Of a stretch of DNA of 23,369 nt, positions 1,564-20,575 are shown piece by piece; positions within the stretch are counted from its first letter, which is position 1, and each line of letters begins with the position of its first letter. The notes under the pieces are model-generated. The model was not told the origin of the DNA, did not search any database, and was given only the letters and a program-made list of their open reading frames with translations. Source of the stretch: Chrysophaeum taylorii (lineage: Eukaryota > Sar > Pelagophyceae > Pelagomonadales > Pelagomonadaceae); NCBI GenBank assembly GCA_029834535.1, contig JAQMWT010000597.1, positions 15,001 to 38,369 of the forward strand. Reading direction: 5' to 3'. The translations under genes were made by a program, and so were the position numbers.

Positions 1564-1774
1564 TGCGGCAGGAAAGGATCATGCGCGCTGACTTCTTACC
1601 CTGCTTCGACTGTGCCCTCGACGTCTCGAGGGTGCCGAGCGGGTTGAGGAGCGCTTCCTTCCTGTCGATCAACCTTCACACTGCCCACGAGCTTCAATCC
1701 GAAGACTCGTGAAATGATTTGTGGTTGAGATTAGTCGATTTGAAAGGAGTAAACGCCTGGTGGCGTTACAAATA
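1564..1774 (-). repeat. 3' LTR, first part (outer), interrupted
   Basis: Aligns with 14212-14422 at about 7 substitutions plus a 4-base insertion (CAGG at about 1569). It begins TGCGG on the plus strand, which is the CA-type end of the minus-strand element. It stops at 1774, where the MULE-like element begins, and resumes at 5491. Confidence 0.88.
1766..1774. repeat. Target-site duplication (left) of MULE-like element A
   Basis: TTACAAATA here and TTACTAATA at 5482-5490 flank the insertion, with one mismatch. The uninterrupted LTR copy has a single TTACAAATA followed by CGTGCG, and the right flank continues CATGCG. This shows that the nine bases were duplicated. Nine bp is the usual MULE duplication length. 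Confidence 0.75.
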
Positions 1775-1780
1775 TTCTTT

Positions 1781-1965
1781 GGGTAAATGTCACATCACTG
1801 GTTCTTGAGGTCACATCACTGTTACCCAAAAAAGTGAGGTCACATCACTCGCACCCTAGGCCAATCACTGGTACCCCATTTGTGCTTAGGTCACATCACC
1901 CGTACCCTAGGGACACATCACTCGTTCCCCGTCTCGCGGGCTCACAGGTACCAGTGATGTGTCCC
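1781..1965. repeat. Left terminal inverted repeat and subterminal motif array
   Basis: Seven copies of a motif close to GTCACATCACTSGTNCC occur at about 1789, 1809, 1838, 1861, 1889, 1911 and, inverted, 1947-1965. The outermost copy belongs to the terminal inverted repeat. Clustered subterminal motifs in DNA transposons are commonly transposase-binding sites; that role here is an inference. Confidence 0.8.
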
Positions 1966-2192
1966 GAACTGGTGTATAGTAACGTGATATGACCCATATT
2001 AGAAAAACGGTACAACTGATGTGAGCAAGAAGGAACAGCTGATGGAACGTAGTTCAAATCAGACTCACGCCGGCAGTTTCTTATCAGTGCACCGTTGCCA
2101 GCGGTCCTGCAGACGGGGGTGAGTGAGAGACGCGCGCTTTCTGCAGGTGCCGGTCCCGCCGGATCTTGTTCGGTCGGTAGACTCTCGTGCGG

Positions 2193-3865
2193 ATGTCGGC
2201 GTCTTGGGAGAGCGTCGATAGCCTAATGAACATCTCGGACACATTCAGAGAATACGCAGAAGTTCTCGCGACTCAAAAAGCCCAGCTTCCGACGACGACG
2301 AGGAGGATGGAGGGCCCGAGGATGCACTGCGGGGCGGGGGCGCTGAAGGAGTCTCGGCGACGGAGCGCAAAGCGGTGCGTCGAAAGGCCAGGACCGAGGC
2401 CATCAAAGACGAGAACGCCCGCTACGAGGGCTTGTACCAGCCGATGCCGCGAAAACTGGCGCAAATCCCGCACGACGAGAAACTTGAAGTCGGCAAAGTG
2501 CACCCGAGTCGGGCCCACGCAGAACTTCAAGCGACTGAATTGGCTGCGAGGGACAGCAAGGTCCTGCTCGCGAATGGCCCACCGGTTCAAAGGCTCGCCT
2601 CGGGCATTAACATGAAGCCGACGAAGAACGGAAGTTGGCTTGCGCTGCGCTGTGGTGGGTGCGATAGTTTTTTCGTTATCATGACGCGCACGGACTGCGG
2701 GAGTTGGGTTCTCCAGTATGCCCACAGGATCATGATATCAATTTCTCAAATCAACGGTCGATGACTGTCTCGTCACGCCAGCCGCGGAATGGCGGGCCTT
2801 CGAACGACCATCGAAAGCAGCGCGCCTACACCGCGCAGCAGCTGCTTCCAGTTATTCTATCCGCTATGCTTCACGACCTCAAAAAGAAGAAGAAGCAAGA
2901 ACGCAAAGCAACGCCGAGCGGATTGGTTTCCATTTTACAAGAGTTTGTTCCTCGGAAAGTGGACATCGAATTCGCGCACCGGGTGCTGAAACACACGCGG
3001 GCTGTGATATACGGGAAGCCAGAGGATGATGTTAAGGCCATAACTCATATCGAGCAAGCATGTGCTGCTGCTGGCATCCATCTCAAATTTATCTGCGTCA
3101 ACGCAGCGTAGGCGAAGTCCATGCGTCTCGAGGCCGAGAAGCTCAAATTCGGGCGGGAACAGGAGCGCCTGACGAAAGGGAGGATGATCAAGGAGAAGGC
3201 CAAGTTTGATCCTACGACTGTTCCTCTCCAAATGTATGACGACCTGGGCGAGGACATACGATTCGTCATCGGCCACTCGGTATGCTTCCAATTCGCATAC
3301 GAGCCCCTTCCGGATTGCTCGAACGCGAGCTTCGGTGATTTCACCCACACCAAGGCGGGTTGCTTGGGCGGGATTGTCAAGCTGGCATCCTGCAACAAGA
3401 GCACTACAATCTCTTTTTCTGGCCTTCGGCTGACGAGCACGACGGCGACGAAGATGACGACGCGACGAGTATGACAACGTCGACGTGTTCACTGACGACG
3501 AAGAAGGCGATCGCGACGCTCCTCGAGATGGCCCGCCTTCTGACACCCCGGCCACTGCTGGAGACGAACCGTGGCTGGCTGCCCCATCCGCTGCTGGAGA
3601 CCAACTGTGGCCACCTGTCGAGGACGAGGTGCTCGTGGCCGAGGAGAAGGCTGCGAAAGCACAAGCCGCCATTTTGAAGGAACGCAAGCGAAGCTTCCGA
3701 GACGAAGAGATGTCTGATGAGGAAGCAGCGCCGAATTTGCAGCAACCCCGCGCGTCACAGCAACCCGCCGCGGGTGTCTGTGAGCCGATCTCGAAAGGCA
3801 CTCGAGGTGCGACTGCCATGGCGATTGCTCGGGACTTTCAGGCTCTTCCATTCGCTCGTGTGTAG
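2193..3865 (+). pseudogene. Decayed MULE-like transposase remnant
   Basis: Coding-like sequence passes through several frames. It starts near ATG 2193, shifts at about 2275 into a frame with an acidic run (SDDDEEDGGPEDA), then reads a Cys pair followed by an aromatic/Trp stretch (RCGGCDSFFVI ... TDCGSWVL, about 2640-2715). A further shift reaches a C/H/H segment (CPQDHDINF, about 2716-2745). Together these resemble the FLYWCH/WRKY-like zinc domain at the N-terminus of MULE transposases. The frame continues through a Lys-rich region, a TAG at 3109-3111, and then GHSVCFQFAYEPLPDCSNA and GDFTHTKAG at about 3270-3350. The latter is placed like the first catalytic Asp of a DDE transposase. Downstream only an acidic, Ala/Pro-rich tail (3485-3865) is readable. 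The rest of the catalytic core is not seen. Confidence 0.5.
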
Positions 3866-5212
3866 GAAACCACCCAGTCGCGCTTAGAACCAGGCCAAAA
3901 GCGCGCAGTTGCTGGGTGCTTCGTGGGACTGCCATCGCAGCACACGTGTTCACGCTGCCAGCGGTTTATTCACCTACAGTGCGCTGCACGCGCTCAGGGA
4001 GTTCGATGAAGGCGACCAGCAAAACAACTTCTGGGAACTCAAGTGCAAGCCAATTCGCAAGCCACAGCGCGAGGTGAAACGCCGCCGCGGCAAATAGCTC
4101 TTCAGAACCATGCTGCACCCGCCCGTGTCCCGCCGAGGGAAAGGCGCTGTTCATGGTAGTTTCCACTCAGACAAGCTGTGACGTGCTATTCTTGCGCATG
4201 CAGCCCTATTTCTTGCTCATGCGACATGTGACGATCTTTCTTATTCTTGCGCATGCGACTTTCTTGCGCATGTCCACCCCATCGCTGTCCGTTGAGAAGA
4301 AATCTCTTCCCTACAACCCTTCTCCTTTCCTTGTCAATAGCCCCTGGATTGACCTTCAAGCACCCACAAGCACCCCCCGACTCTTTGCAGTCGACATTAA
4401 AAAACCCCTCGAGTGCACCTCTTGCACCTCTTAGCAGTCGACCTATGGATCGTGCTTACACTCATCTTCATAGATTAGCGCGCCCCGTAGGCACGCAGTT
4501 TTACATGTTAAAGCCTGCAGTTCTACGTATCGTCTGTCGTGTGCCTAGGCTAGGGAAACTAACCAGTTCCCTGAATTCCAACATACCAGATTCACACGTT
4601 GAGGCGGGGTAGTTCTTCAGTTCTCTTCCCACTGCATTTCAGAATCCTCTGGAGCACGTGGCAATCCTAAAACCTCGCATGTCTGCCATCACCTGCCTCG
4701 GTGCACTTGTATGCTCCCATTCACTCGCACGCATGATCCCCTTTGCTTGCCTCCGGGGAGGCCCCAATTAGCCATTCAGCCGAAGAAGGGCCTTCACCCG
4801 GAAGTTCACCGACGAAAAGCGCCGGGTGACCAGTGCCCCGCAGCACTGCCCCAGCCCTAACTTTGAGTATATGGAAGATGGGGTAGGAACCTACTTCCCT
4901 GGTTCTGGCGAATGGACCGAGCAGAGTCCCGGCGAGGGCCGCGGGGCACCGGGGAAGGCCGAGGCTCCGCGTATATTGTCACGGCGAGGCGCAATTGCCC
5001 CGAAGAGTAGTCGAGCCTCGCCACGTGCCACAAAGTGAAGTACACATCTGCTGGCACGAGCAACTCACCAGGCCCGGCGGCCGTTCGCAACATCCATTGC
5101 GTTGGTAACACAGGCGCGCACCGCCGTGGCCCGTCGGCGGGCATCAAGATACAAGAAGTATTTGAAATAACCCGTGACGTGACCATTACCAAAAAATCCT
5201 GGTCAACCTTCG
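3866..5212. other. Internal non-coding part of MULE-like element A
   Basis: No convincing gene. A 62-codon plus frame at 3909-4097 ends in a basic stretch (KPQREVKRRRGK) and could be the remains of a transposase C-terminus. The rest is moderately AT-rich, contains a short CATG repeat cluster near 4190-4275, and has no frame longer than chance. Confidence 0.5.
4189..4275 (+). repeat. Interrupted short repeat, TTCTTGCGCATG
   Basis: TTCTTGCGCATG or close variants (one with GCTCATG) occur about four times within 90 bases, with short irregular spacers. Each contains a near-palindromic TGCGCATG/GCATGC core. It lies inside MULE-like element A. It has no clear function and may be a decayed minisatellite. 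Confidence 0.55.
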
Positions 5213-5481
5213 GGTCACATCACTGGTTCCACCTTCGGCAAGCAGGGTCACATTACTGGTTTATAAGAACCAGTGATGTGACCGTTTTCCCGTGTCGCTC
5301 CGGAGCTCCGTCCTGGAACGAGTGATGTGACCCGAGAGGACGAGTGATGTGTCCTGTTTATTATGAGGGCAAGTGATGTGGGTAAGGAGTCAGTGATGTG
5401 ACCCGAGAAATTAAGAGAACCAGTGATGTACCCTTGGTGCGAGTGATGTGACCTCGAGAACCAGTAATGTGACTTTTACCC
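5213..5481. repeat. Right terminal inverted repeat and subterminal motif array
   Basis: About ten copies of the motif seen at the left end occur here. Most are in the opposite orientation (AGTGATGTGACC form at about 5268, 5315, 5338, 5367, 5388, 5417, 5437 and 5457), while the two innermost (5213 and 5246) face the other way. The outermost copy is part of the inverted terminus ending in ACTTTTACCC at 5481. Confidence 0.8.
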
Positions 5482-5490
5482 TTACTAATA
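5482..5490. repeat. Target-site duplication (right) of MULE-like element A
   Basis: TTACTAATA, one mismatch from the left copy at 1766-1774. After it the LTR sequence resumes (CATGCGCCAGGGGTT, against CGTGCGTCAGGGGTT in the intact LTR). Confidence 0.75.
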
Positions 5491-5590
5491 CATGCGCCAG
5501 GGGTTAAAGAAGAATCCAGTAAACGGGAATTGGGGTAGAGAACTCGATAGAACCAGGGGTAAGGATGGCGGTGTAAGGGTTACCGCCACA
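5491..5590 (-). repeat. 3' LTR, second part (inner)
   Basis: Aligns with 14419-14518 with about 9 substitutions and ends in GGTTACCGCCACA, which on the minus strand is the TGTGGCGG start of the LTR. With 1564-1774 it gives a 311-bp LTR against 307 bp for the other copy. The difference equals the single 4-base indel. Confidence 0.88.
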
Positions 5591-5611
5591 GGACTCCCCT
5601 GCTTTGATAGG
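5591..5611 (-). promoter_or_regulatory. Polypurine tract
   Basis: On the minus strand AAAGCAGGGGAGTCC directly precedes the TGTGG start of the 3' LTR. A purine-rich run at this place is the plus-strand DNA primer site of LTR retrotransposons. Its position fixes the orientation of the element. Confidence 0.7.
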
Positions 5612-5619: not shown

Positions 5620-7224
5620 TCAGCGACGGCGGTGGTGCGACTGACGAGAGTTTCGGCGCGGACCGTCGGTGGACGGGACTTGAGTGCGCGTCTGATGAGC
5701 GCGCTGTTGAGCTTGGAGTTGTTCTTGTTCTTGTTCTTGGCGCGCGCGATGCGCGAGAATATCTTTGACTCGCTGGACGATCGGAGGAGGAACTGATTTA
5801 CCCTGGAGCTTGAACCGGGGAACCAGGACGTCGATCTCGTCCGGGGCGAAGTCGGTCACGCAAGGGGTGCACTGAGGTGTTAATTTCTCGGTGCGGGTGA
5901 AGCTGCGACCGAGTGCCGTCTTGAATTCCGGGCTCAGCGTGCGACCTTCAAGCGGTGAGGTCGGGTCGAAATACGATGGATCGTCGCGCGGGCCCAGGTC
6001 GGAGTAAAAATGGAGGGCGACTCGGTCTTGAACATCATCATAATCCTCGAAAACCTCGGCGACGTAGAGCTTCTTGCGCCAATCGGGGTCTCGGGCCGAC
6101 GGGATTCGGAAGATGACGAACTTGCCGCGCTCGTACTCGCTGCGGAATCCGGGGCTCGGACGACGGATCGTGGTATCGAGTGCGGGAGGCATCGACACTG
6201 GGGTGATCTGTTGGACCGACACGATTCGCTCTTCGGCGGCTCCGTAAACCGATCGGATCTTGTACGAGACAGGCGACAGACGCTCGGTGATGAGGAAGGG
6301 GCCGTGCCACTCCGGTCGCAACTTGTTTTGGGACTGCGGAATGTACAGTAATACGTGCGAATTGACATTGTATTCGACATCCACGTGCTCGGCGTCGTAA
6401 GCGAGTTTCTGCGTCTTCTTGGCATGATCCTGTGCTTCGGCGACTACTTTCGAGTAATACTGGGAGCTCTGCTTGACGTTCAGTAACACGTCGGATCGTG
6501 GTCGCGGCAAAACGGGGTCAGGCCGAACCAAAAAGGTGTAGTCCGTGGGCAACATCGGCTGCCGGTTCAGGCGCAACATGAATGGCGAGATTTGCGTGCC
6601 GGATATGAACTTTCGGTTGTAGCAAATCGACACGTACCGGACGAGGGCCGGCCAGTCGGTGATGCTGCGACTCTCGAGGCGGCGGGCCCGGAGAAACGCC
6701 TTGAGGAGTCGATTGACTTGCTCCGCGGGGTTCGCTTGGGCGTGGTATTGTCTCGGCGTCCTGTGCTTTCGGCCGGCCCAGAACGCTATGGCGTCCTCTT
6801 GCGGCGCGTTCGGCCCTCTGTCTTCAACCAACTGATCGTTGAGCGGACGTAAGTCGACGGCCGCGCGGAGAGCGTTAGATGTCCCGAGCTCTGCCCCTTT
6901 CTTCGGAAGCATTAAGATCGGGAACCCCCGAGGGGAGTTGGCGGGTCTTACGACTCCGTCTCGGCGCCATTTGGAAATCTGCTTGCGAAGATATTCGATC
7001 TTGGCTGGAGCGAGGCCGTACGGCGACGTCTCGATGGGCTTTGGGTTCGCGTCTTTGAATCGGAGGGACACCGGTCGAGGGTCCACGGTCCTCATAATGG
7101 GATCGAAGGAGGCCCAAGAGTATCGAACGCAGTGCGCCAACATGAGTTTGGCATCCTCGTCCAAGTGTGAGTTGTTCGGGATGCCTAGCTCGTCGACTTG
7201 TCCATAGAGAACAGTAAAAATCAC
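5620..7224 (-). CDS. Pol fragment: RT N-terminus fused in frame to integrase C-terminal half
   Basis: A 534-residue open frame. Residues 60-132 match the start of a gypsy reverse transcriptase: a linker, then ISKWRRDGVVRPANSPRGFP, LPKKG and AVDLRPLND. At about residue 133 the sequence passes directly to integrase: EDRGPN (the second catalytic Asp region), YHAQANPAEQVNR (catalytic Glu, about residue 168), then a basic tail with LRPEWHGPFLI (about 302-312), which matches the GPY/F module. Asp and Glu are 33 residues apart where about 36 is usual. Residues 365-410 (VIFRIPSARDPDWRKKLYVA ...) resemble a small chromo- or SH3-like targeting module, with low certainty. The RT palm with its YxDD box, RNase H, the integrase HHCC finger and the first Asp are absent. 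The deletion joins the two parts in frame near 6825, so a fusion protein is possible but would be catalytically inactive. Confidence 0.85.
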   Translation of the reverse strand: MIFTVLYGQVDELGIPNNSHLDEDAKLMLAHCVRYSWASFDPIMRTVDPRPVSLRFKDANPKPIETSPYGLAPAKIEYLRKQISKWRRDGVVRPANSPRGFPILMLPKKGAELGTSNALRAAVDLRPLNDQLVEDRGPNAPQEDAIAFWAGRKHRTPRQYHAQANPAEQVNRLLKAFLRARRLESRSITDWPALVRYVSICYNRKFISGTQISPFMLRLNRQPMLPTDYTFLVRPDPVLPRPRSDVLLNVKQSSQYYSKVVAEAQDHAKKTQKLAYDAEHVDVEYNVNSHVLLYIPQSQNKLRPEWHGPFLITERLSPVSYKIRSVYGAAEERIVSVQQITPVSMPPALDTTIRRPSPGFRSEYERGKFVIFRIPSARDPDWRKKLYVAEVFEDYDDVQDRVALHFYSDLGPRDDPSYFDPTSPLEGRTLSPEFKTALGRSFTRTEKLTPQCTPCVTDFAPDEIDVLVPRFKLQGKSVPPPIVQRVKDILAHRARQEQEQEQLQAQQRAHQTRTQVPSTDGPRRNSRQSHHRRR

Positions 7225-7383: not shown

Positions 7384-7704
7384 CTAGTCCACTTCTTCCT
7401 TCGTGGGGTTCTCGACGATTATGGCCTCGTTCTCTTTCAGATGGTTGGGCTGTTGCGGTAGCGGCGCGCCGTCTTTGTCCCTTGGTGCGTTTTTCCATGG
7501 CACGTGAAACCGTTCCTCATACTTGAACCGGACGGACTCTTTGGTCTTGTCGCCTGTTGGTCCCTTGGTTGGTTTTTCGTCAAATCTCGGTTCGCCTTTC
7601 GAGATTGCGTCGTTTTTGCTCGCGCGGGTACCCCCTTGGGAAGATGAGTGCATCGCCCCTGATGCAGCGGGCTTCGGAGGGGTCAAAGGAAGATCCGGCG
7701 GTTG
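7384..7704 (-). CDS. Pol linker, charged hydrophilic segment
   Basis: An open frame between stops at 7705-7707 and 7384-7386 encodes about 106 residues rich in Lys, Pro, Glu and Asp. It overlaps the distal end of the methyltransferase frame in another frame. Its reading (LTPPKPAASGAMHSSSQGG and onward) looks more protein-like than the overlapping frame, so the polyprotein probably switched to it, by decay or by a sequence error, at about 7700-7850. Its SSQGGTR echoes PHSPQGGTR in the protease precursor (about 10635-10661), where the DNA also shares GGGTACCCCCTTGGG. No known domain is seen. Confidence 0.4.
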   Translation of the reverse strand, partial: QPPDLPLTPPKPAASGAMHSSSQGGTRASKNDAISKGEPRFDEKPTKGPTGDKTKESVRFKYEERFHVPWKNAPRDKDGAPLPQQPNHLKENEAIIVENPTKEEVD

Positions 7705-8758
7705 CTATTTCGCTTTGTCCTGGAGGTCGCGGTTGGGCACCCAGCGGATTACGCGAGTCGAAACGCTCACGAGGGCGCTCCGAGGCTCGGGTGCGGTGGC
7801 TCCGTTGCGGGTGTGGTCGGAGTGGGCTCGATGATGTATGTTTCGGAGGTTCGTCGGTGGGTGCGACTACGTTCGGGCGCGCGATTCCGATGTTGCGGAG
7901 CATGGGCGGCAACGCGTTGTGGGCGTCGAGGACTATGTACGCCATGGCGGACGGGGGTATCACGGCTGCTAGATGCTTCATTCGGTCCGTGACTGTGAGT
8001 TTACCCCATGCGAGATCGCGCGGCATTGTGAGAGCCTCCGCGAGCATCTCTAGTCTGAGCGCTTTGGTGTCCGAAGGCGTGGGTCCTGTTCGCACCCCGG
8101 TCCGCGTGATGGTGTATATCGGTGCCGTGGCATCTCGCGTGCATCCAAAGTTGTTGCGCTGGATGAGGTGCTGCGAAGGGTCGAGTCCGAGTTTCGCGGC
8201 GAAGGTATCCTGAATAGTGCCGCACGTCTTGGGACGTCGGGTGAGCTGAAGAGGCCAGCTCGCGATGATCATGCGCCGACGGGTACTCATGAGGTCCGGC
8301 GTCGTCGTCCATAGATCGACGACGGTGATGAAACCTTGCCGCAGCGTGATTTTCGAGCGGATGGAAGGTTCCTGCTCGATGATCCAGCGTCCGACTCCGG
8401 AGAGCTGGAAGAGCCTGATAGTCCAATTGGTCGCGGAGTCTCCTTTCCCGGCGTCGCGGGCCGTAAGCTTGCACAAGGCGGAATCGACGCATGGTGGCGT
8501 GCCAACGAAAAGTGCTGTGGGCCATAGGCTTTCATGCAGGTAACCTTTGACCAGAGATAAGACCCTGTCGTACCGACCGCCGAGGGTGTGCTGGACGACA
8601 GGTACTCCTGGATAGTTTCTCTCATGGACTTCTTTGGCGGTGTCGGATGCGTCGATGACGAGCGCGACCTTATACGCGGTTCCGAACCATTCATTGCTCC
8701 GGTAGATACCCTGTGTGCCACCTCCAATCCCGCCGAAGAACATCACGACGGGCGTCAC
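7580..8758 (-). CDS. C5 cytosine DNA methyltransferase domain within the retrotransposon polyprotein
   Basis: This frame (positions counted from the GTG at 8758; the frame is open upstream to beyond 8960) shows the ordered motifs of m5C methyltransferases. Motif I, which binds S-adenosylmethionine, is FFGGIGGGTQG (7-17). Motif II is VIDASDTAKEVHERNYPG (34-51). Motif IV is VGTPPCVDSALCK (85-97) with the catalytic Cys at 90. A motif VI-like WIIEQEP (125-131) has Glu where ENV has it, and a motif VIII-like STRRRMIIA (158-166) follows. A motif IX-like KLTVTDRMKHLAAV (253-266) and a motif X-like HNALPPML (280-287) close the fold. About 290 residues is a normal minimal length for such enzymes. Unusual points are Val after the PPC Cys, where Gln is normal, and no QxRxR Gln. 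It lies between protease and RT, so it would be made as part of Pol. The expected activity is cytosine-5 methylation of DNA, inferred from the fold motifs. Residues after about 305 are probably out of frame. Confidence 0.82.
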   Translation of the reverse strand: MTPVVMFFGGIGGGTQGIYRSNEWFGTAYKVALVIDASDTAKEVHERNYPGVPVVQHTLGGRYDRVLSLVKGYLHESLWPTALFVGTPPCVDSALCKLTARDAGKGDSATNWTIRLFQLSGVGRWIIEQEPSIRSKITLRQGFITVVDLWTTTPDLMSTRRRMIIASWPLQLTRRPKTCGTIQDTFAAKLGLDPSQHLIQRNNFGCTRDATAPIYTITRTGVRTGPTPSDTKALRLEMLAEALTMPRDLAWGKLTVTDRMKHLAAVIPPSAMAYIVLDAHNALPPMLRNIGIARPNVVAPTDEPPKHTSSSPLRPHPQRSHRTRASERPRERFDSRNPLGAQPRPPGQSEIATAGSSFDPSEARCIRGDALIFPRGYPREQKRRNLERRTEI

Positions 8759-8898
8759 GTTCTCTGAGATCCAGGAGAGCGCCTGGTGCTTGTCGATGAT
8801 CGCTTGGTCGGCGACCCGGGATTTCGGCGGTTCTTGCGACTGCGCCTTCGGGGCTTGCAGACGCGGCTTGATTGAAGACGTTCGAAATGCTTGGCCGT

Positions 8899-9204
8899 CT
8901 AGTTCTCCGGGGTCTGGAGTTGGGTAACTGGTGACCGAGACCGTGAAGGAGGCCGTGCCCTCGGGCTCGCTCTCGTGCGCGTTTCCCGGGTCGGCGCTTG
9001 GCCATGGGTTGTCACCTGAACTTCTTCTTGGCAGTTGATGATTTCCCCCCGCGCGAGCTCTTGACCTCGGATGATCGACATCGGCGTGTCGTCCATCGAC
9101 GACACGGCCACTGCGGCCGCGGTCGGGTCGGAGCGGTCACACGTCGAGCAGGTCCCGGCGACGACACCGAGGTGATCCACGCTTGGCGCGGTGGCGACAA
9201 AGAC
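8899..9204 (-). CDS. Protease-to-methyltransferase linker after an in-frame stop
   Basis: This is the direct continuation, in the same frame, of the protease frame after its TAA at 9205-9207. The text around the stop (a Pro-rich approach, then SVDHLGVVAGTC, PMSIIRGQELARGEIINC) matches the pattern of the protease-RT linker of gypsy elements, where a beta-strand module ends in an I..G..L..G-type phrase. The stop therefore most likely arose by mutation or sequence error, with programmed readthrough a less likely option. The frame ends with TAG at 8899-8901, and the methyltransferase frame is already open in this overlap, so a frame change occurs at about 8900-8980. Confidence 0.5.
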   Translation of the reverse strand, partial: VFVATAPSVDHLGVVAGTCSTCDRSDPTAAAVAVSSMDDTPMSIIRGQELARGEIINCQEEVQVTTHGQAPTRETRTRASPRARPPSRSRSPVTQLQTPEN

Positions 9205-10830
9205 TTATCCGGGCTTCAGCGCTTGACTCAGCTTGACCGGGATGTTGTGGGTTCGACCGGGGTCGATGCGCTGGGAGCCGGTTGCGAACGCTCGGATCTC
9301 GGGAGCGGACGTTTTCGGGTCGTTGCTCGGCATAGACGGATCTTCGGCCAAGGTTACGGCGGCCGAAGCTCGCTGAGGAGGCGGCGAGAGGAGATCCTCT
9401 TCAGCGAGCAGTGGTGGCAGAGCTCCCTTGCCACCTTGACTCCGACTCTGCGTCATCGCTTGCCCTCGAAAACCGCAAATCGGCGCTACGATAGGGTGTC
9501 TTTCGTACGCTGCCCGATAAAGAATGGCGGGTGACCGAACGATTTCCCCAGCGTACGGGAGCTTCATCATCTGGAAGACTGTTTGGGTTCGCGAGAAGGA
9601 GATTCGGTCTCGGGGATAATCCACGACAGCGCCCAAGGCTCGAATGTCGCCGGCTCCCAGCAGAAATTGTTTGTTGGTGTATGCCACGATGGCGACTACC
9701 GGTACGGCCATTTCGTCCGAAACGGATATTCGCAGGGCGATCCACTCGGAAATCGAGGTCGTGTTCTTTCCCGATCCGAAGAACGTTCGCTCGAAAGGCA
9801 GCTTGCCGCTATCCAGCAATATCCCTCGCCTTCGCATTAGGCGTGCGAGGTCGCGACAGATGTAGGTGACGTCGGCCATTCCGTCCACACCGATCACCGT
9901 GGCATACGAGGATTCGCCCGGCTTATTGAACACGTGGATGGGCATGAACGTCAGGCTGCCGGCTTCCAAGCAGTTAAGGACACGCAGGTCTCTGTCGATC
10001 GTGTCGGCGTTGATGGAAGCGAAAGAGGAGTGCATGCACATGGCTTCGTCCTCCGTCCCTGCCATCGGCATCGATACGTGCGCGCGTCCCGCGAAGACTC
10101 GGCGAGCTCTCGACCACCAGCCCTGTCGGCGCGTTCGCGGATCGGCGGGTAGCTCTTGGATTCTCCGTTGCAACCGACGGCCTCTTTCTTCGCGCTCTCG
10201 AGCCGGGAAGTCGGGAAATCTTCGTTCCTCGCCTTTCCGATGCTCGTTTCGTTCTTCGGGTGGCTCGGGCTCCTTGCCGATTGGCTTCTCTTCGTTTTGG
10301 AGAAGGAGGACCCTGCCACCGTCTGGGGTCTTGTTTCGGTTTCGTGCCGGGGGGTCGGTTCGCTCTTGACTCTTCTTGTTCCAGAGCCGCTTGACTCTCG
10401 TCCACATCCCCGACACTCGGCGCGGAGGTCTTAATCTGGCGTTTCTTAACCGCGTGCGGGACGCTTTCGATCCGTGAGCTTCCTCTAGGCTTCTCTCTTC
10501 TCGAGCTTCGCGCGGGGGTCCCCTGTCGGTTTCGGTTGCTTTTTCCAATTCTTCCGGTTCCGGCGTGGTCGGTTCCTGGGCGGGTTCCTCGACTGGTGGC
10601 GACTCGCTGTTTCCGCTGCCGACATCGCGCCCGTGTCCGCGGCGGGTACCCCCTTGGGGAGAGTGCGGCGCCGCCCCCGACGTTGAATCGGGGTTGATAT
10701 CGTTCTCGGGCGTGCTGTCGTCGTCGTCATGGTCGTTTCGGTCGGGCGCGTCGCCGTCCGCATCCGCGGGGTTTTGTCGGCGCGGGTCCGCGAATGCTTG
10801 GAGAAGGGCGTCTGTTATTGCTGTGGCGGT
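9205..10830 (-). CDS. Retroviral-type aspartic protease with a long charged N-terminal extension
   Basis: This frame (from 10869; real coding probably enters from the previous frame near 10830) begins with about 250 residues rich in Arg, Glu, Pro and Asp and no visible fold. The protease spans about residues 305-430: a strand (FMPIHVFN), the active-site phrase VIGVDGMADVTYI with Asp at about 329, a flap-like FFGSGKNT, and the closing phrase FLLGAGDIRALGAVVDY, which matches the conserved [IL]LG.D.L...GA.IDY end of gypsy proteases. The usual D[ST]GA is DGMA here: Asp and Ala are kept, the second and third residues are not. Its role is to cut Gag-Pol into mature parts in virus-like particles; whether this variant could do so is unknown. 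A TAA stop ends the frame. Confidence 0.7.
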   Translation of the reverse strand, partial: TATAITDALLQAFADPRRQNPADADGDAPDRNDHDDDDSTPENDINPDSTSGAAPHSPQGGTRRGHGRDVGSGNSESPPVEEPAQEPTTPEPEELEKATETDRGPPREAREERSLEEAHGSKASRTRLRNARLRPPRRVSGMWTRVKRLWNKKSQERTDPPARNRNKTPDGGRVLLLQNEEKPIGKEPEPPEERNEHRKGEERRFPDFPAREREERGRRLQRRIQELPADPRTRRQGWWSRARRVFAGRAHVSMPMAGTEDEAMCMHSSFASINADTIDRDLRVLNCLEAGSLTFMPIHVFNKPGESSYATVIGVDGMADVTYICRDLARLMRRRGILLDSGKLPFERTFFGSGKNTTSISEWIALRISVSDEMAVPVVAIVAYTNKQFLLGAGDIRALGAVVDYPRDRISFSRTQTVFQMMKLPYAGEIVRSPAILYRAAYERHPIVAPICGFRGQAMTQSRSQGGKGALPPLLAEEDLLSPPPQRASAAVTLAEDPSMPSNDPKTSAPEIRAFATGSQRIDPGRTHNIPVKLSQALKPG

Positions 10831-11665
10831 TTCGGGTCCGCGCGGATGACGGAACGGGGCATGGAACAATTCTCCGGGTTGACTTTCCCGTTCGTCCGAA
10901 CTGCCGCTGTCCGAATCGGTGTATCGTCGATGAGGTCGGGGAGTTCGTCATCAGCGGCGAGTGGATTTGCCTCCGGTGATCTCGTTCGGTTAGCGTCGGG
11001 GTCGGAATCGTCGTCGCTGTCGCTGTCGGAGTCAGACGGGTGCTCATCGGTCGCTTCCGTTCCCGAGTCGGAGTCGTCATCCCCGTCGGATGTGTCCTCG
11101 ATGAGGGCGGGGCCGTCGGTGTCCGAGTCGTGCGGGACTTCCGCGGTTGCGCCGCTGATGCGGCTGGCCACATCTTCCTCCTGAGTGCGCGAACTCGAGT
11201 CTTCGGCGTCGTCGTTGACGTCCGAGGGTGTTGCGTCCGACTCGTGCGGTCCCCACTGGATGTCCTCGGTGTTTCAGAGTCCTGGCTTAGCCAGAGGCGA
11301 TAGCGCGTTCTCCTCTTGACCGGGCCGACCGTCATCAGGCGCCTGGGCGGTGAGTGATCGAGGGTCGACCACCGGCTCGGAGTCGACGTCGGTCTCGGGG
11401 AGCCCGGCGTTCTCTTCGTTCCGGAGCGGGACTCCTCGCAAGGCGAGCTTTGACTGTGCGATAGCGGTCTCCGCTTGCGTTTTGTCCAGCTCGTCCTCAG
11501 GGACCACGTCGAGAGCCGTCGTGGAGTCGAACGTCGGGTCAGTCGGGGCGGCCAGCGCGCATGGTTTCGGCGGCGGGTCGCTCGATGGTGTCGCTGGGGG
11601 CACGGAGGACGGCCCCAAGGCTCCGAAAAACTCGCCGTCGGTGCTGCTGGCCGACCCGAGGAGCG
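10830..11665 (-). CDS. Gag-Pol acidic linker
   Basis: In this stretch the protein-like frame is a third one, seen as two pieces (11618-11274 and 11171-10815) separated by a stop near 11274 or a short shift. The second piece contains a striking Asp/Ser run (DEHPSDSDSDSDDDSDPDAN, about 11042-10983). The first is Pro/Ser/Thr/Asp-rich. The region joins the Gag capsid region to the protease extension and has no recognised fold. Acidic disordered linkers are common in Gag-Pol, but this one could also have drifted after the element died. Confidence 0.45.
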
Positions 11666-12562
11666 TGGCGTCGGAGACGGAACATCCGGATGCGCCGCCG
11701 CTGATTGAGGTCCAAAGAAAGACCCGGCGTAATCCATCGACGATTGCGCACTCGAGCTCGAGGAGTTTCGAGCTGCGAGCGCGCGCTCAACGATCGCTTC
11801 AATCTGGTCGGCCTGCACGGCGCCAACATTCGACGACGCGGTGGCGTTCGCATTCGCCGGCGGTCGTTGGTCGCCGTTGGCTCGTGCGGCTTTTTGTGCT
11901 TTCTTCCAGACTCCGTGAGGGATTGTTTCTTGTCCCTGCCGTCGTCGCGCTTTCATCGCCTGCCTATAAGCGTTCGGGCGAGGGCATCGGAGGGAACCAT
12001 CCTCGTTTCGCGTATGATCGACGTTGAAATTTCCGCAGTCGCACATCTCCCGCATCCAGGCGTCTTTCTCTCGCATGCTGGGCCTCGGGTCCGCGTCCAC
12101 CTCGGGCTCTTCCTGCAGCGTCGCGTATGCGCCGGGTTTCCTGCGGTCGCGCGGGTCGCGCGGCGGTGGGTTGGTGGTTTTGCCGGGGTGCGCCTTCTGC
12201 CACGCGTCGAACTGGATCTCGTGCCGGAGGATCAGGCTTTGGACTTCAGCGAAGGTGTTGTACTGGTTGGGCTGATCGCATCGCGCGGTGTGGATCTTTT
12301 GCTGGAGCTTCGTCGATGCCAGTCCGGGGATCATTTGGTGAATCATCTCGATGCTATCCATCGACGTTCCCGTCAACGCTGTATAGGCCGTAGCCTCCTT
12401 CTGCAGCGATTTGAGGTAGGTCATGACCCAAGATTCGCCTTCCTTCTTCGGCGTTGTGGCTTGCGTGATGTTCCGGACCCCGTGGAAGGCTGCCTCCGGT
12501 CGAGGCGCGGGTCGGCAGGCTTGGCGGAGCTGCTGGAGGATACGCTTGACGTGGGAGAGTTC
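11665..12562 (-). CDS. Gag capsid-like region with an atypical zinc knuckle
   Basis: Coding-like sequence is entered by a frame change near 12562 and left near 11665. The helical part (SHVKRILQQLRQA, KKEGESWVMTYLKSLQKEA, MIHQMIPGLASTKLQQKI, NTFAEVQSLILRHEIQFDAW) has the pattern of a retrotransposon Gag capsid domain: a short-repeat Leu pattern and an invariant-looking Trp. It is followed by CDCGNFNVDH ... LRC (about residues 282-301 of the frame from 12886), a Cys/His array with spacing C-x-C-x6-H-x9-C in place of the classical C-x2-C-x4-H-x4-C. Downstream are a Lys/Arg-rich stretch and a Ser run (about 12040-11700). It is assigned to Gag from position and pattern; sequence similarity to any one Gag was not testable here. 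Confidence 0.6.
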
Positions 12563-13721
12563 AGGTCGCGAAGCTGTCGGGTCTGTTCCTTGTACGGCGT
12601 CTGGCTGTCGGCGTGGAATTGCAGATAGAACGACTCGGGGTGGCCGAACGAAGTACACAGTGCCTCGGCCGCCATTCGCCCTTCCTCCAACGTCGGTAGC
12701 ACGGCCTGGCGCACGTCGTCCGCGAGGCCAAACGACAGCGAGCTGATGGAATAGTGCTCCTTCGACAACTCTCCGACGATGAGGGCGGCCTCGAGATCGA
12801 ACTGCCGCTGGTCTTTGCCCTCGATGTCCAGCTTGATCATCTCCAACTTGAGACGTCGGTGCCTCGGGGCGGCCGCGTCCTCGCATGTTCGGGAAGCCAG
12901 GGAGGCGGATGGCCCTTGGCCCGTTGCGGCCCTCACCAGTGCGGCGACGATCTTGTCGGCCTCCGTGGGTTCCTTCTCTTCCTCGTGGGCTCGCGGACGA
13001 TTCGCCTGCTCCGTGCGTCGGACCGGCGGTTCGCTGCTCGGCGGCTCGGAGTCGGATTCGTCGAGATCCGATCCGCGAGGCGATTCGGGTCGCGGTGGTC
13101 GCGCTCGCTGCTCTCGATGTGTCTTGAGCGAGCGCACTTCCTCCCGGAGATCTTGGATCTCGGTCGCTGCGGCTTCGCGAGCGTGCTCCGCGTCCTCGCG
13201 AGCGCGTCGGAGCTCGTTCTGAAGGGCTTCCTTCTCCTCACGGGTGACGGTTTCGAGTCGAGCCGTCGCCGCCTCTTCGATCTGCGCCGCGATTTCTTGG
13301 GCAATCAAGCTGCGCTCTTCCTCGCGCTCTTGCGCCTGCTTCTGTATCTCTTCAGCTTGTATTCGGATCCGCTCTTGCAGCAGGCTTCGCACTTCTTCGT
13401 CTTGCTGGGTGCGCTGCTGCAGCTGGTCTTGGAGCAACGATACCATCTCCTGCAGCTCGCGAACGGCGCGGGAACTTTCGGCGGCGCGCTCGTCGGCGGG
13501 TTCGGTTCGAGCGTGGTCGGGGCGCTTGGCTGCTCGCCCGTCGACTCTTCATCTTGTCTCTCTTCGGCTTCCGCCGGTCTTTCGGTTTCTCGGCCTGGCT
13601 CGTGAGCGGCGGCCGGCGCCGGCGCGTGTGGCTGCGTCGGCGGGGTCTCTTTTTCTTCCGCCCCTTCTCTCCCGGCGTCGGGGGGGACGTCCTCATCTCG
13701 TATGATGCGTCGCTTCGGCAT
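12562..13721 (-). CDS. Gag N-terminal region with a long coiled coil
   Basis: A genuine ATG lies at 13721-13719 on the minus strand, about 490 bases inside the 5' LTR, the expected place for a Gag start. The first 70-75 codons (frame from 13721) are charged and Pro-rich. The coding then appears to shift at about 13490 to the frame that contains ELQEMVSLLQDQLQQRTQQD and a heptad-like Gln/Glu/Arg run to about 13100 (LLQERIRIQAEEIQKQAQER and following). This predicts a coiled coil of over 80 residues. A Pro/Glu/Ser-rich hinge and a helical block (EMIKLDIEGKDQRQFDLEAA ... YSISSLSFGL) follow, before the next frame change near 12562. The start of the capsid domain is probably in that last block. 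Confidence 0.6.
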
Positions 13722-14211
13722 TGTTGCTGATGCGGTCTCTTCTAGTGCCTCTGTTTTGGCGTGGCCCGTCTTCTCGGACTCCGCTCACTCTTTTCCGGTG
13801 ATCGGCTATTTGGTTGTCCTCGGGCTTGTCGGGCGAGTCGATGCTCGTCTCCGGATTGCGCGCAAATATACGTTTTCACACGTATGCCGCGCTCGACGCT
13901 CCGCTCAGGACCACGTCGGGAAGCTTCTTTGCCACTCAGTTCCCAAACTGGTGGTGATGCCGAGAGAAGTTTTCTCGGCCGGGTACCCTTCTTGTTGTTG
14001 TGCGTGTCTTCACGCGGGCGTACGATCTCGTCGACGACCGTACGGAGCACGTTTCGTGTGCTAGTCTTCTCTCGAGCGCCTTGAAGAGCTTCGGGGGTGA
14101 TCAATCCCCGCGGCAACTACCGGCGGTGCTTGCACTGTTCCCAGCGCTTGGCTTGCGGTTGCAGGTTCGGAGATCTCGCCGATGTAGCAAGATCTCGTAT
14201 CCTCCACCACC
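13722..14211 (-). other. Retrotransposon leader and putative primer-binding site
   Basis: Between the LTR and the Gag ATG there are 490 bases with no convincing coding. Directly inside the LTR the minus strand reads GG then TGGTGGAGGATACGAGAT. A TGG start within a few bases of the LTR is the usual primer-binding site form (complement of tRNA CCA), but I cannot assign the tRNA. The frame spanning 14116-13742 uses a TTG start and has no supported product. Confidence 0.5.
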
Positions 14212-14518
14212 TGCGGAAAGGATTATGCGCGCTGACTTCTAACCCTGCTTCGACTGTGCCCTCGACGTCTCGAGGGTGCCGAGCGGGTTGAGGAGCGCCT
14301 CCTTCCGGTCGATCAACCTTCAAACTGCCCACGAGCTTCAATCCGAAGACTCGTGAAATGATTTATGGTCGAGATTAGTCGATTTGAAAGGAGTAAACGC
14401 CTGGTGGCGTTACAAATACGTGCGTCAGGGGTTGAATTAGAGTCCAGTAAACGGGAATTGGGGTAGAGAGCTCGATAGAACTAGGGGTAAGGATGGCGGT
14501 GTAATGGTTACCGCCACA
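14212..14518 (-). repeat. 5' LTR of the gypsy-like element
   Basis: A 307-bp uninterrupted LTR. On the minus strand it starts TGTGGCGGTAACC (14518) and ends CCGCA (14212). It carries the promoter and polyadenylation signals of the element by general LTR logic; I could not pick a convincing TATA box. It differs from the other LTR by about 16 substitutions and one 4-base indel by eye. Confidence 0.9.
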
Positions 14519-14696
14519 GTCGACTCAAACTGGGTTCGTGGCGAAATCACCCTCACCCGGGCCACACTGTGCATGCCACCCAACGCCAGTTTTATGGCTG
14601 CCCACACTGGACCACCGGCGACAGCGGCTGCAGATTCAAAGCATTTTTTTTCATTGGATTTCTCCGCGTCGCATCCTCCGATGACAGTGGCTACTG
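14519..14696 (+). pseudogene. Hypothetical gene, middle part between two insertions
   Basis: After the right GTCGA duplication (14519-14523) the plus-strand frame that was broken at 1563 continues without a stop (SNWVRGEITLTRATLCMPPN and onward) to 14696, the last base of the left duplication of MULE-like element B. Joining 1563 to 14524 keeps frame. The segment encodes about 58 residues, rich in Ala/Thr/Ser, with no recognised motif. Confidence 0.45.
14687..14696. repeat. Target-site duplication (left) of MULE-like element B
   Basis: GTGGCTACTG, exactly repeated at 16456-16465. Ten bp fits the 8-11 bp range of MULEs, and the repeat lies just outside matching inverted ends. Confidence 0.88.
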
Positions 14697-14823: not shown

Positions 14824-16399
14824 ATGGCGGAGCGACCGCTGCGACCACTCAACGAGATATTTGTCGCTGCTTCGAAGATGCTCACTGGGAACGAGTGCGA
14901 CGGAACGTCCTGTGTGCTCGAGATGGCGCGCGAGGCGTGCGATGCGTTCGGCTGGGATTTCAGCAAGGAGATGACGAACGGTGGCCTTGCAGGTATTGCG
15001 AAGCGTATGGGGACCTATCATCGGAGTCGAGGTGCACCGAAAGGAGCGCGCGCGTGAACCATCCAAGCAAACGACTCCAAACCCCCGGCCGCAGCAGCGC
15101 AGCCGCCGCGGGGAGATACTAGATGCAAGTGACGAGAGCGTGGTCGAGATGCCGCACTCTGCGCGGCGGCTCGGCTTTGGCGAGGAGGAGGAGGAGGAGG
15201 ACTACGAGCTTATGGCCATGGGCACCGAGACCATGGAAGCAGATTGGGAGGTCGTGGACGACAACGAGGAGGTCGAGGACGATGAGGACGACGAGATCGA
15301 GCCCCTGTCCGACGCCTCCACCAAGGCCACCCTCAACAAGGACGGCACGCTCCGCACGCCGCGATGCACAGTATCAAGCGGTAAGTATGAGCTCGCAGTA
15401 GTCGCCGCCGCTGGTGATTACAAGCTCAGCACTACCAAGAACCACACCGGCAAGTACGAGACAGGCGAGCGACCCGCGCCCATTAAGAACGAATTCAAGG
15501 TGCGTTCTCTGAGCCATTCGAGGTGGGGAGTCGCGCGGACCACCGCTCTCAGTGCAGATCATTGCAAGGTGACGCTATACCTGGCCTGCGAGTTCCGCAA
15601 GAACAAGCCGTGCTGCCCGGCCAAGGCGAAGCTCGTTTACCACATCGCTGCCGGTCAGGTTGAGCTCTACTTCAGCGGCGAGCACCAGAAGCACGCCAGC
15701 GACCTCAGCGACACCCGGAAATGTCGAGGTCTCCCGCGACTGCTCAAAGGCCCTATCCTAGCGCGCTTCGCTGCCGACCCCAAACCCCGCGCCATACCCA
15801 TCCGCCAGTGGCTCGTGGACACCGGCCTTACTTACAAGAACCAGTTCAAGTTGCACAAGGGCAACAACAATCGGAGGCAGCTGATGCGCTTCGTCCGCCG
15901 TATGCGCACAAAGCTGCTCAGTAGCCTGTCAGTGGGCGACACGGTCGCGTACACGGTCATGATGGTTGACGGTCGTGACCTTATCGCCCACGTTCTACAC
16001 CTGCAGCTATCCCAAATTCTGGCACATTACAAGTGCAAGCACGTTCTCGCTCTCGCCATCCGCCTCAAGCACGTTCAAGTCCCGGAAGACACGATCATCC
16101 TGCCCTTCCGCAAGCGCCGCCGTGGTCGCGGTGCCAAAGCGCACGGCGGAGAGGCGTTGAGCGCGAACCTTCTCGACATCGTGGCCGCGGCCGCAACAAA
16201 GCCCGCTGCCGTTTCCCAACCTCGTCAATTCCCACTATTCCAGGCGCGTCTGCCAAACCACCTCACCCCAACCCACACCACCTCTGTGCGCGTTCCTCTC
16301 ATTAGAACGGTTTCGAGCGAGTCAGGGCAGGGTTGCAGCCGCGTAGCACCGTTAAACACTTCATCCCAACAGGCGATTTCTTTTTATCCCAAGGGGTAA
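14824..16399 (+). CDS. MULE-type transposase remnant lacking the DDE core
   Basis: The ATG at 14824 opens a 77-codon frame (MAERPLRPLNEIFVAASKML) that ends at 15057. The main frame, open from before 14981 to TAA at 16397-16399, is entered by a frame change or a small intron near 14990 (a CAG|GTATTG donor-like site is there). In main-frame numbering from 14981, residues 67-108 are very acidic. Residues 190-240 hold a FLYWCH-like zinc segment (CEFRKNKPCCPAKAKLVYH, HQKH). Residues 255-310 are a basic helical region (KGPILARFAADPKPRAIP, then IRQWLVDTGLT), as found just before the catalytic domain. At about 320-345 the sequence jumps to YKCKHVLALAI (350-360), the CxH end of a SWIM zinc finger, followed by an Arg-rich nuclear-localisation-like run (FRKRRRGRG). 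The DDE/D core and first SWIM Cys pair are missing. The stop lies inside the right inverted repeat. Confidence 0.7.
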
Positions 16400-16692: not shown

Positions 16693-16762
16693 GGGGGGGT
16701 TTGGGGGGCAGAGCCCCCCAATTCCCGGGGGGTTCGGGGGGCTTGCCCCCCGAGAAAAAGGC
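16693..16762. repeat. Paired G/C hairpins with four G6-7 runs (unit 1 start)
   Basis: Two adjacent perfect hairpins: TTGGGGGGC-AGA-GCCCCCCAA and TCGGGGGG-CTTG-CCCCCCGA. The strand also has four runs of six or more G, which could form a G-quadruplex. Same structure at 18797-18865 and, with shorter runs, 21302-21352. At the unit 1/2 and 2/3 joins a third hairpin (CCGGGGGTGTCCCCCGG, about 18779-18795) precedes them. Confidence 0.85.
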
Positions 16763-16888
16763 CGAAAAAAACCCGACTTGGCCTTACTAGTCCACAATAA
16801 TTAATTGGGAAACGTGTGTCAGTCAGTGAGAGAACTCTAACGGCACTCTACTTTCTGTTCGAAGCCCTATGTATGCTCGAAACGGCCA

Positions 16889-16935
16889 CACAAAATCTGC
16901 GTTTTGTGAAGCCGATTTATTTCAAAACGCTTCAC
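16889..16935. repeat. Overlapping hairpins conserved in every unit
   Basis: CACAAAA-tctgcg-TTTTGTG (16889-16908) overlaps GTGAAGC ... GCTTCAC (16906-16935), sharing GTG, so both cannot form fully at once. Identical arms occur at 18992-19038 and 21484-21530. Confidence 0.7.
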
Positions 16936-17452
16936 CCGCGACCTACTTTCTGTTCTTTTGGTAATGTATGCGCCAAAAGCATTAATGTTTATAAAATGTT
17001 TTGTTCTTGCTATCTACGGCGAGCCTTGTAGTATCGGAGAGACCGTAGAAGTTTGAGCGAGAATCTGGGGTAGTTGCTGTACGTACGTCTCGAGTTCGGA
17101 TCCTGTTAGTGTTTCGAAGGAAAAAACCCTTAGTCGTGAGTATTTCGAAGAAGGAAACCCGTAGTATTCGTTGAAAAGAAAACCGTGTCGGTTGGTCGAT
17201 TTCTATGCTGGCTGTATGCTGGCGTAGTCGTAGATCGCGAGTATTTCGAGGAAGAAAACCCTAACCTTCCGTCTTCGCCCCCCGGCCATGCACCGTCCCA
17301 CAGCGAACGTTCCGGCTGCCAACCGGCACGTTCGGGAGGCGAATAGGTGCCAACCTACGCCGGGAGGGCGGATGGGCCTCGCAAGGCTCAGGATTCGTGA
17401 GGCACCGTCCTCCATCGCCCGCAGTCAGCGATCAGGGTAAGGTTGTAGTCGT

Positions 17453-17466
17453 AAAAAAATTTTTTT
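17453..17466. repeat. A7T7 tract conserved in every unit
   Basis: AAAAAAATTTTTTT lies between GGTTGTAGTCGT and GAAGTAAGGTTGTCG, and the flanks GTAAGGTTGT/GTAAGGTTGT form a direct repeat around it. It is kept exactly in units 2 (19556-19569) and 3 (22043-22056), although other homopolymers in unit 3 are shorter. Confidence 0.7.
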
Positions 17467-17761
17467 GAAGTAAGGTTGTCGCGTGCGACGGCGATGGAGC
17501 CTTCGCCCGGCAAACGGGACGACGCGCTCGAGCCAGGGACGCGAGCCTCGACGCCGGCATGGCATGCCGGGTGGCTCCCTCTTATCTTTCGGGGTTCTTT
17601 TGGGTTCTGGCGCGCGCAAAAATGCGACGCGATTTCGCCTTTTTTACGCGCGAACTCTTCGGTACGCGCGCGATGCGTGCCAGCGTCTTCGTCGCCGCTG
17701 AGACCGCCACCGAAGCGACCGAACGAGACGCGACCGTCGACTCGGTGGATCGACCACCGTT

Positions 17762-18050
17762 TAACCTTCGTTACGATGCGTGCCGGCGGCTTCGTCGCCG
17801 CGAGCGGCCACCGCCGTCGCGACCGCGGACTCGGACTCGCCCGCGGGTTGACGTCCAGTCGACCAACCCGAAATAAAAACTCGGCGGCGCGGCGCGCCGC
17901 CGATCGTCGAGCTCGACGCGTCCGCCAGCGCTTCGATACGATGCGTGCCGGCGTCTTCGTCGCCGCTGCGAGCGGCCACCGCCGTCGCGACCGCGGCCTC
18001 GGAATCTCCCCCGCGGGCGACAACGGCTCGCCGTAAAGTCGCGGCCTTCG
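17762..18050. repeat. GC-rich subrepeats, two copies (unit 1)
   Basis: Two copies, about 165 bases apart, of a block that starts CGATACGATGCGTGCCGG (first copy CGTTACGATG) and continues CGTCTTCGTCGCCGCTGCGA, then GCGGCCACCGCCGTCGCGAC. The tail GTTGACGTCCAGTCGACCAA separates copies. Confidence 0.75.
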
Positions 18051-19664: not shown

Positions 19665-19690
19665 GCATCGCATGCCGGCGTTTTACGTTC
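19665..19690 (+). repeat. Perfect hairpin followed by TTTT (units 2 and 3)
   Basis: CGCCGGCAT-CGC-ATGCCGGCG is followed by TTTTACG, here and at about 22146-22172. Unit 1 has a variant (CCGGCAT-GGC-ATGCCGG) without the T run. It could stop RNA polymerase III, or be just a structured spot; there is no transcript evidence. Confidence 0.5.
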
Positions 19691-19959
19691 GGGGTTCTTT
19701 CGGGGTTCTGGCGCGCGCAAAAATGCGACGCGATTTCGCCTTTATTCCGCGCGAACTCTTCGGTACGCGCGCGATGCTGCCCGGCGTCTTCGTCGCCGCT
19801 GCGACCGGCCACCGAAATCGACAACGGCTTGCCGCGCTCGCGTCTCTGCGGTCGAAGCCCGCTTCCACGGCTACGACTCGATCTTCCGACGGGCCGTCCT
19901 CGAGAACGCGCGCGACCGAACGAGACTCGACCGTCGACTCGGTGGATCGACCACCGTTT

Positions 19960-20575
19960 AACCTTCGATACGATGCGTGCCGCCGACTTCATCGCCGCTG
20001 CGAGCGGCCATCGACGTCGCGACCGCGGTATCGGACTCGCCCGCGGGTTGACGTCCACTCGACAAACCCGAAAAAAAACTCGGCGCGGCTCGCTCGACGG
20101 GCGGCGCTCCGCGCCGCCGGGCAGCGCTTCGATACGATGCGTGTCGGCGTCTTCGTCGCCGCCGTCGCGACCGCGGGCCGTCGCGACCGCGGCCTCGGAC
20201 TCTCCAGCGGGTTGACGTCCAGTCGACCAACCCGAAATAAAAACTCGACGGCGCGTCGAGCTCGACGCGTGCGCCAGCGCTTCGATACGATGCGTGCCGG
20301 CGTCTTCGTCGCCGCTGCGAGCGGCCACCGCCGTCGCGGACTCGGACTCGGACTCGCCCGCGGACTCGGACTCGCCCGCGGACTCGGACTTCCCCGCGGT
20401 GTCCAGTCGACCAACCCGAATAAAAACTCCGCGGCGCGGCGCGCCGGCGCTCGACGCGTCTGCCAGCGCTTCGATACGATGCGTGCCGGCGTCTTCGTCG
20501 CCGCTGCGAGCGGCCACCGCCGTCGCGACCGCGGCCTCGGACTCTCCCCCGCCGGCGACAACGGCTCGCCGTAAA
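19960..20575. repeat. GC-rich subrepeats, four copies (unit 2)
   Basis: Four copies spaced about 155-190 bases. The third is followed by GGACTCGGACTCGCCCGC repeated about three times (20337-20399), an 18-bp minisatellite. Copy-number change of this block accounts for most of the length difference from unit 1. Confidence 0.78.

Follow-up and report, generated by a model that had tools for sequence, protein, structure and literature searches.

A divergent C5 cytosine methyltransferase domain within the pol polyprotein of a Ty3/gypsy retrotransposon family in the alga Chrysophaeum taylorii

Retrotransposon-encoded C5 cytosine methyltransferases (MTases) have already been published for Symbiodinium and for a Ty3 element of Klebsormidium, and some of them are described, in the available part of the source, as performing de novo CG methylation (de Mendoza et al. 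2018, PMC5890265). The available text of a second source reports DNMT3 in Copia-type LTR elements and in DIRS elements, and describes "orphan" lineages of DNMT from algae and protists (PMC12344493). Here we describe a related arrangement in Chrysophaeum taylorii, found in a 23,369-nt stretch of contig JAQMWT010000597.1 (positions 15,001 to 38,369; assembly GCA_029834535.1), hereafter the window. A sequence-only reading of the window had proposed, with the published precedents in mind, that a Ty3/gypsy-type element carries its own C5 MTase between its protease and its reverse transcriptase (RT). In our assessment it is quite probable that an algal Ty3/gypsy lineage acquired a C5 MTase as an in-frame pol domain between a protease-like region and RT, and that this enzyme is packaged and would mark the element's own cDNA. 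The capture is supported by homology and position, the number of copies, the conservation of catalytic residues and purifying selection across the family.

In the window the C5 MTase domain occupies positions 7841-8758 of the minus strand (~306 aa, without an internal stop) inside a Ty3/gypsy pol polyprotein. It forms the beginning of a 392-aa open reading frame (ORF; 7580..8758, minus strand) whose first codon is GTG and which is part of a 518-codon open frame, so that we regard it as a polyprotein domain rather than a separate gene; a motif search requiring a Met start fails for it. Comparison with the sister copy C405 places a switch of the pol frame near 7847/7839, and the domain was therefore delimited to residues 1-306. 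The matches of the window query in its own genome mostly stop near residue 303-308, and the ORF tail (residues 307-392; 7580..7840, minus strand) is a frame-shifted read outside the enzyme. The MTase frame proposed earlier is thus real, and all six motifs quoted for it do lie in one uninterrupted frame, on the minus strand, but its extent (7580..8960) had to be corrected to 7841-8758.

The same genome (G000; 70.8 Mb, 697 contigs) holds at least 291 matches to the family, 24 of subfamily A, 130 of subfamily B and 137 of subfamily C. The window query alone returned at least 108 (24 A, 81 B at 44-49% identity and 3 that are further pieces of A copies), a B query at least 130, and subfamily C, 36-39% identical, at least 137. 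These counts are lower bounds, yet inexact, since certain copies are matched in two pieces and certain contigs resemble haplotype duplicates. The contig pairs C25/C521 and C10/C297, which show equal matches at near-identical positions, are probably such duplicates, inflating the copy counts. No stop interrupts the matched stretch in 107 of the 130 B matches listed, and 76 of the 99 RT matches listed are stop-free, which says only that, among the matches listed, the top-ranking copies of the MTase and of RT are intact to a similar degree.

Conservation was evaluated on an 18-row family alignment (A1) and on a 19-row alignment (A4) from which L006, a copy devoid of the PPC motif, was left out. 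The C5-MTase hallmarks, an FxGxG S-adenosylmethionine (SAM) loop in motif I and the Pro-Cys nucleophile of motif IV, are both present. In the window (all on the minus strand), motif I reads FFGGIGG (8720..8740; F8, G10 and G13 invariant in 18/18 rows), the motif II region is LVIDASDTAKEVHERNYPG (8606..8662, with an invariant Asp 36), and the catalytic motif IV is GTPPCVDS (8480..8503). PPC is kept in 17 of the 18 A1 members (lost in L006) and in 19/19 A4 rows. The substitution of PPCV for the usual PPCQ, spotted in the sequence-only reading, extends to the family, with V in subfamilies A and B and I in the C row L066. Motif VI, WIIEQEP (8366..8386), has an invariant Glu 128 and reads EQE in 18/18 A1 rows and in every A4 row, and motif VIII, STRRRMII (8264..8287), contains an RxR invariant in A4. 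Profile alignment adds a motif IX-like segment, EMLAEALTMPRDLAW (8006..8050), and a motif X-like one, HLAAVIPPSAMAYIV (7931..7975), with LAAVIPP; HNALPPML (7898-7921), listed earlier among the motifs, is not motif X, which the profile alignment places at HLAAVIPPSAMA (7931-7975). A further C row, L069, matches PF00145 positions 257-321.

Taken alone, the window copy gave no match in Pfam (E≤1), in 5.8 billion proteins (E≤10) or in viral contigs, and only one unrelated chain (E 0.32) in PDB, an outcome in line with a chance similarity or a generic Rossmann fold. The 18-row family profile likewise found nothing in the protein database at E≤1, and the 19-row profile no relative in viral or prokaryotic genome contigs; these searches being empty, no donor was identified. 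The family as a whole, on the other hand, aligned with a C5 MTase set at an hhalign probability of 97.7% over columns 1-281, that is, the whole domain, whereas 20 shuffled controls reached at most 0.6%. The PF00145 profile, negative for the window copy alone, did detect the family, in 13 of the 19 A4 rows (in none of the six subfamily-A rows), with up to 40.8 bits for subfamily C. Lack of a significant match, the first of the three refuting outcomes named in the sequence-only reading, applies to the single copy and not to the family. Furthermore, a Foldseek search with an AlphaFold model of the family retrieved solely C5 MTases at E≤0.001, and DNMT3, DNMT1 and HhaI chains are among the structure matches; the predicted structure, on a model of modest confidence, matches the C5-MTase fold. 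(An earlier model, built from 18 sequences with the window copy first, had a mean pLDDT of 40 and was not used.) Since C5 MTases are matched by profile and by fold across both ends of the domain and the shuffled controls are negative, the chance explanation is close to refuted. The suggestion of a separate capture or a diverged branch fits these data; our tree, which contained no DNMT1, DNMT3 or DNMT6 sequences, leaves the family unplaced (54/80) on long branches and does not separate the two.

The position between protease and RT holds in the sister copies, whose order is protease-like region, MTase, RT, RNase H and integrase. Three subfamily-B copies (L037, L039 and L041) show PF00145, RVT_1, RNase H, H2C2 and rve in that order in a single frame, and in L047 (subfamily A, the MTase of which is undetected by Pfam) the MTase is followed in the same frame by RVT_1, RNase H, H2C2 and rve. 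These four copies, with the MTase at the same pol position, thus display the Ty3/gypsy order RT - RNase H - integrase with an rve core. The protease region has no Pfam match in either the window or the sister copies, its label coming from motifs that we take to be retropepsin-like. A listed MTase lies no more than 3 kb upstream, in the same orientation, for 54 of the 99 RT matches listed, and the distance is 623-640 bp in 51 of these cases; five of the remaining 45 were inspected (a non-random choice), and all five proved to have MTase sequence upstream, L062 being rearranged and L063 incomplete. In the window copy itself the MTase does lie between protease-like motifs and RT, but only ~90 RT residues are left. 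As to the longest frames, the copy at C5:541501-557500 has an open frame of 3063 codons, with a gag part unlike that of C679 (by eye), and L035 (C679:153501-162500, subfamily B) has a 1854-aa open frame that ends shortly after the MTase.

Selection on the domain was estimated as dN/dS by NG86. The values are 0.23 within subfamily A (21/21 pairs, single pairs up to 0.67), 0.065 within B1 (10/10 pairs), 0.22 within B2 (15/15 pairs, up to 0.57) and a rough 0.055 between B1 and B2 (30/30 pairs, dS ~2); the A-B comparison gave a computable dS in only 17 of 77 pairs. The MTase is constrained but evolves faster than RT: comparing L030 (B1) with three copies of B2 gives an MTase dN of ~0.11 and an RT dN of ~0.026 (L048 rows, with a probable frame break, were set aside). 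Recombination was considered as the cause of the greater MTase divergence between B1 and B2 and ruled out, as RT dS is also near 2. Purifying selection together with hundreds of matches could also be expected of an MTase that serves the host, damping transposition or having been recruited by it, an idea found in the available discussion of PMC5890265. Wherever the surroundings were examined, the MTase resides in element polyproteins (no search for a stand-alone host gene was made), and we consider such a host benefit very unlikely.

Several observations weigh against an active, cDNA-methylating enzyme, whose activity and action on cDNA are inferences. The usual Gln after the catalytic Cys and the ENV of motif VI are absent, being replaced by V/I and by EQE (with the Glu kept), and the segments LASVVPP, LAAVIPP and LGSIVPP, which align to motif X GNxVxP, lack its Asn. 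Such departures might indicate a catalytically dead SAM- or nucleic-acid-binding domain with a structural role in the particle. However, PPC and EQE in 19/19 A4 rows and the invariant RxR speak for retained function, and the DNMT5 enzymes of the host and of Cryptococcus (7r76) likewise have Cys-Val (SCV) in place of Cys-Gln, which implies that members of the C5 MTase superfamily can do without the Gln; we hold a dead domain to be improbable. Confidence in the AF2 model is low (mean pLDDT 49, pTM 0.56; mean pLDDT 34-38 for the other four models), and so are the Foldseek TM-scores (0.30-0.51 by query length, 28 rows used). The B1-B2 dS near 2 is saturated, making the corresponding ratios rough, and in the closest deleted pair (window versus C608) the MTase dN/dS is 0.75, next to 0.89 for the integrase remnant and 1.14 for the RT stub; the protease region has 0.49, and two pieces of gag have 0.50 and 0.31. 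Purifying selection is therefore visible for the family and not for the window copy.

Nor do the copies carry a clear footprint of CpG methylation. The observed/expected CpG ratio shows no depletion in five Ty3 stretches (1.20-1.43); it is 1.30 in the window element, 1.57 in the window repeats, 1.07-1.14 in three flanks, 1.40-1.49 at the host DNMT2 and DNMT5 loci and 1.00 in a copia-type frame described below. No clear excess of transitions at CpG over other G/C sites was seen between B copies (0.018 v 0.027, 0.014 v 0.024 and 0.040 v 0.043), between A copies (0.076 v 0.070) or between the two long terminal repeats (LTRs) of the window element (2/48 v 8/119 sites). There is thus no clear sign of methylation-driven CpG decay, which is compatible with methylation elsewhere, in few copies, or with efficient repair.

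The same lack of a footprint would be expected if the domain were a C5 MTase by descent acting on RNA, either the genomic RNA or the tRNA primer. DNMT2 and DNMT6 act on RNA, and against single C5 MTases the family profile scored low, with the host DNMT2 the best of seven (79%) and six phage proteins at 0.6-64%. DNMT2 chains were also among the best, albeit non-significant, PDB profile matches (E 0.14 and 0.43). On the other hand, the six phage DNA MTases taken as a set reached 96.8% with DNMT2 removed (set versus single sequence being an uneven comparison), the tree assigns no place to the family, and the CFT motif, a DNMT2 mark present in the host DNMT2 (L051), occurs in 0/19 A4 rows. Because the host DNMT2 is the best single match, we gave the RNA alternative more weight, and the self-marking explanation less; we nevertheless judge an RNA substrate unlikely.

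The explanation that we favor is the capture of a C5 MTase by a Ty3/gypsy LTR-retrotransposon lineage, in frame between the protease-like and RT domains. The domain would be packaged together with RT and could methylate cytosines in nucleic acid of the element. The freshly made double-stranded cDNA would be the most likely substrate, in which case a new copy would already bear the mark on entering the genome; a maintenance enzyme of the host could preserve that mark afterwards, DNMT5 being present in this alga.

The window copy itself is a decayed, non-autonomous element in which most of RT and integrase is deleted and the frames are broken, and it is unlikely to yield a functional polyprotein enzyme. 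In comparison with C405, its pol frame switches near 9007, 7847/7839 and 7387/7197. The element (all parts on the minus strand) begins with a 305-bp 5' LTR (14215..14519), adjoined in element orientation by TGGTGGAGGATACGA (window 14170-14214), which could be a tRNA primer-binding site and is without a tRNA match. There follow a presumed gag-like region (11355..13904; matched by a sister copy in pieces, with broken frames and no Pfam match), the retropepsin-like motifs GVDGMAD ... FLLGAGDI (9631..9891; by motif only, no Pfam match) and, past the MTase, a linker with an RT stub (6757..7197; RT part ~90 aa, 7026-6757, 72% to its counterpart in the sister copy). The stub runs into an in-frame RT-to-integrase deletion junction (6718..6777) and an integrase C-terminal remnant (5623..6757; Integrase_p58_C, 23.8 bits, below the 27-bit cut-off). 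The junction is common to four of the five subfamily-A copies examined, being found also in C405, C608 and C371 and absent from C169; a single deletion that later spread is the simplest reading. Since the near-identity of C405 and C169 in gag does not extend to the RT stub, recombination took part. The 3' LTR is split into 1571..1774 and 5491..5591 by a 3.7-kb DNA-transposon-like insertion (1775..5481) with 40-nt terminal inverted repeats, 92.5% alike, and a 9-bp target duplication, TTAC(A/T)AATA (5482-5490). The two LTRs (14215-14519 versus 1571-1774 plus 5491-5591) are direct and 94.8% identical (16 differences in 305), and no target-site duplication of the retroelement was seen at the element edges examined. 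Plus-strand ORFs at 14981-16399 (472 aa) and 698-1591 (297 aa), neither with a Pfam match, flank the element, the left one entering the LTR. Farther away, window positions 16694-23369 hold three successive 2.1-2.5 kb direct repeats, with pieces 60-100% alike and long GC-rich ORFs on both strands.

The host is photosynthetic (84 light-harvesting family matches, and a pair of D1/D2-type genes on C697, a contig that we assign to the plastid) and encodes both DNMT2 (L051; PDB 1g55, E 3.2e-39) and DNMT5 (L053; 7r76, E 2.2e-132; best named relative Tribonema minus, 54%). An origin of the family from DNMT5, suggested by the common Cys-Val, was ruled out: hhalign gave 0.1% against 23 DNMT5 proteins and 0.2% against the host DNMT5 alone, with 99.5% for DNMT5 against the phage MTase set as a positive control.

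PF00145 matches of another kind (profile ~22-166) are common in this genome, amounting to at least 151 for a second type of MTase element. In L054 (C96:62001-68000) PF00145 scores 32.4 bits in a 1635-aa frame, preceded by a DGGAS protease-like motif (by eye) and followed by a weak rve match (E 0.0048, 17.6 bits, cut-off 32.6); L052 (C4:17101-17900) reaches 47 bits. Integrase following protease, with RT not yet seen in the L054 frame, suggests a Ty1/copia order, and this is apparently a second family, Ty1/copia-like, with a different C5 MTase directly after the protease-like motif. The copia-type profile, which consists of two sequences, reaches 93.5% against the C5 set but 0.1% (hhalign) against the Ty3-type MTases, and shared ancestry of the two is not demonstrable. 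We tentatively suggest, at somewhat less than even odds, that Ty3 and Ty1/copia elements (the latter by domain order) each took up a different C5 MTase at the same spot directly after the protease. If true, packaging an MTase in the particle would be a selected strategy to which LTR elements have turned repeatedly in a DNMT5-bearing host, and the finding would expose an MTase lineage that ordinary sequence searches almost miss.

To our knowledge, retrotransposons carrying this class of host-silencing enzyme are known from few lineages. The present family adds another host and a Ty3 lineage whose sampled RT copies carry an MTase domain, and an MTase branch that escapes Pfam in one subfamily and is only just detected by it in another, for which reason genome surveys that count PF00145 will underestimate the number of these elements. 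Given the hundreds of matches, the several polyprotein frames that are open, the near-identical copies of RT and the DNMT5 of the host, self-marking of cDNA by a retroelement becomes testable in a small algal genome.

Our literature search, with subscription papers and preprints outside its scope, found no paper on this MTase lineage; the kind is already known, and the lineage, host and variant appear new. DNMT5 (host L053; Cryptococcus 7r76) shares the Cys-Val of motif IV and no direct profile similarity (hhalign 0.1%). The retrotransposon MTases and orphan DNMTs in the available text of PMC12344493 are of the same sort, in Copia and DIRS elements there and in Ty3 here. Likewise, SymbioDIRS-Dnmt3 and SymbioLINE-Dnmt of Symbiodinium are, in the available text of PMC5890265, high-copy retrotransposon MTases, as here; the SymbioDIRS enzymes are reported there to methylate CG de novo, and the SymbioLINE MTases form an orphan lineage, as ours does. 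Their carriers, a tyrosine-recombinase element and a LINE, differ from the present one with its LTRs and rve integrase. In KnitGypsy-Dnmt3 of Klebsormidium nitens, according to the same text, a C5 MTase also lies inside a Ty3/gypsy Pol. As described there, KnitGypsy-Dnmt3 carries a recognisable Dnmt3 and a DIRS-like repeat arrangement, whereas the present element has direct LTRs and an orphan MTase missed by single-sequence searches of the window copy. Both are under purifying selection, with a reported Ka/Ks < 0.2 for KnitGypsy-Dnmt3 (PMC5890265) and a dN/dS of 0.055-0.23 for the Chrysophaeum family.
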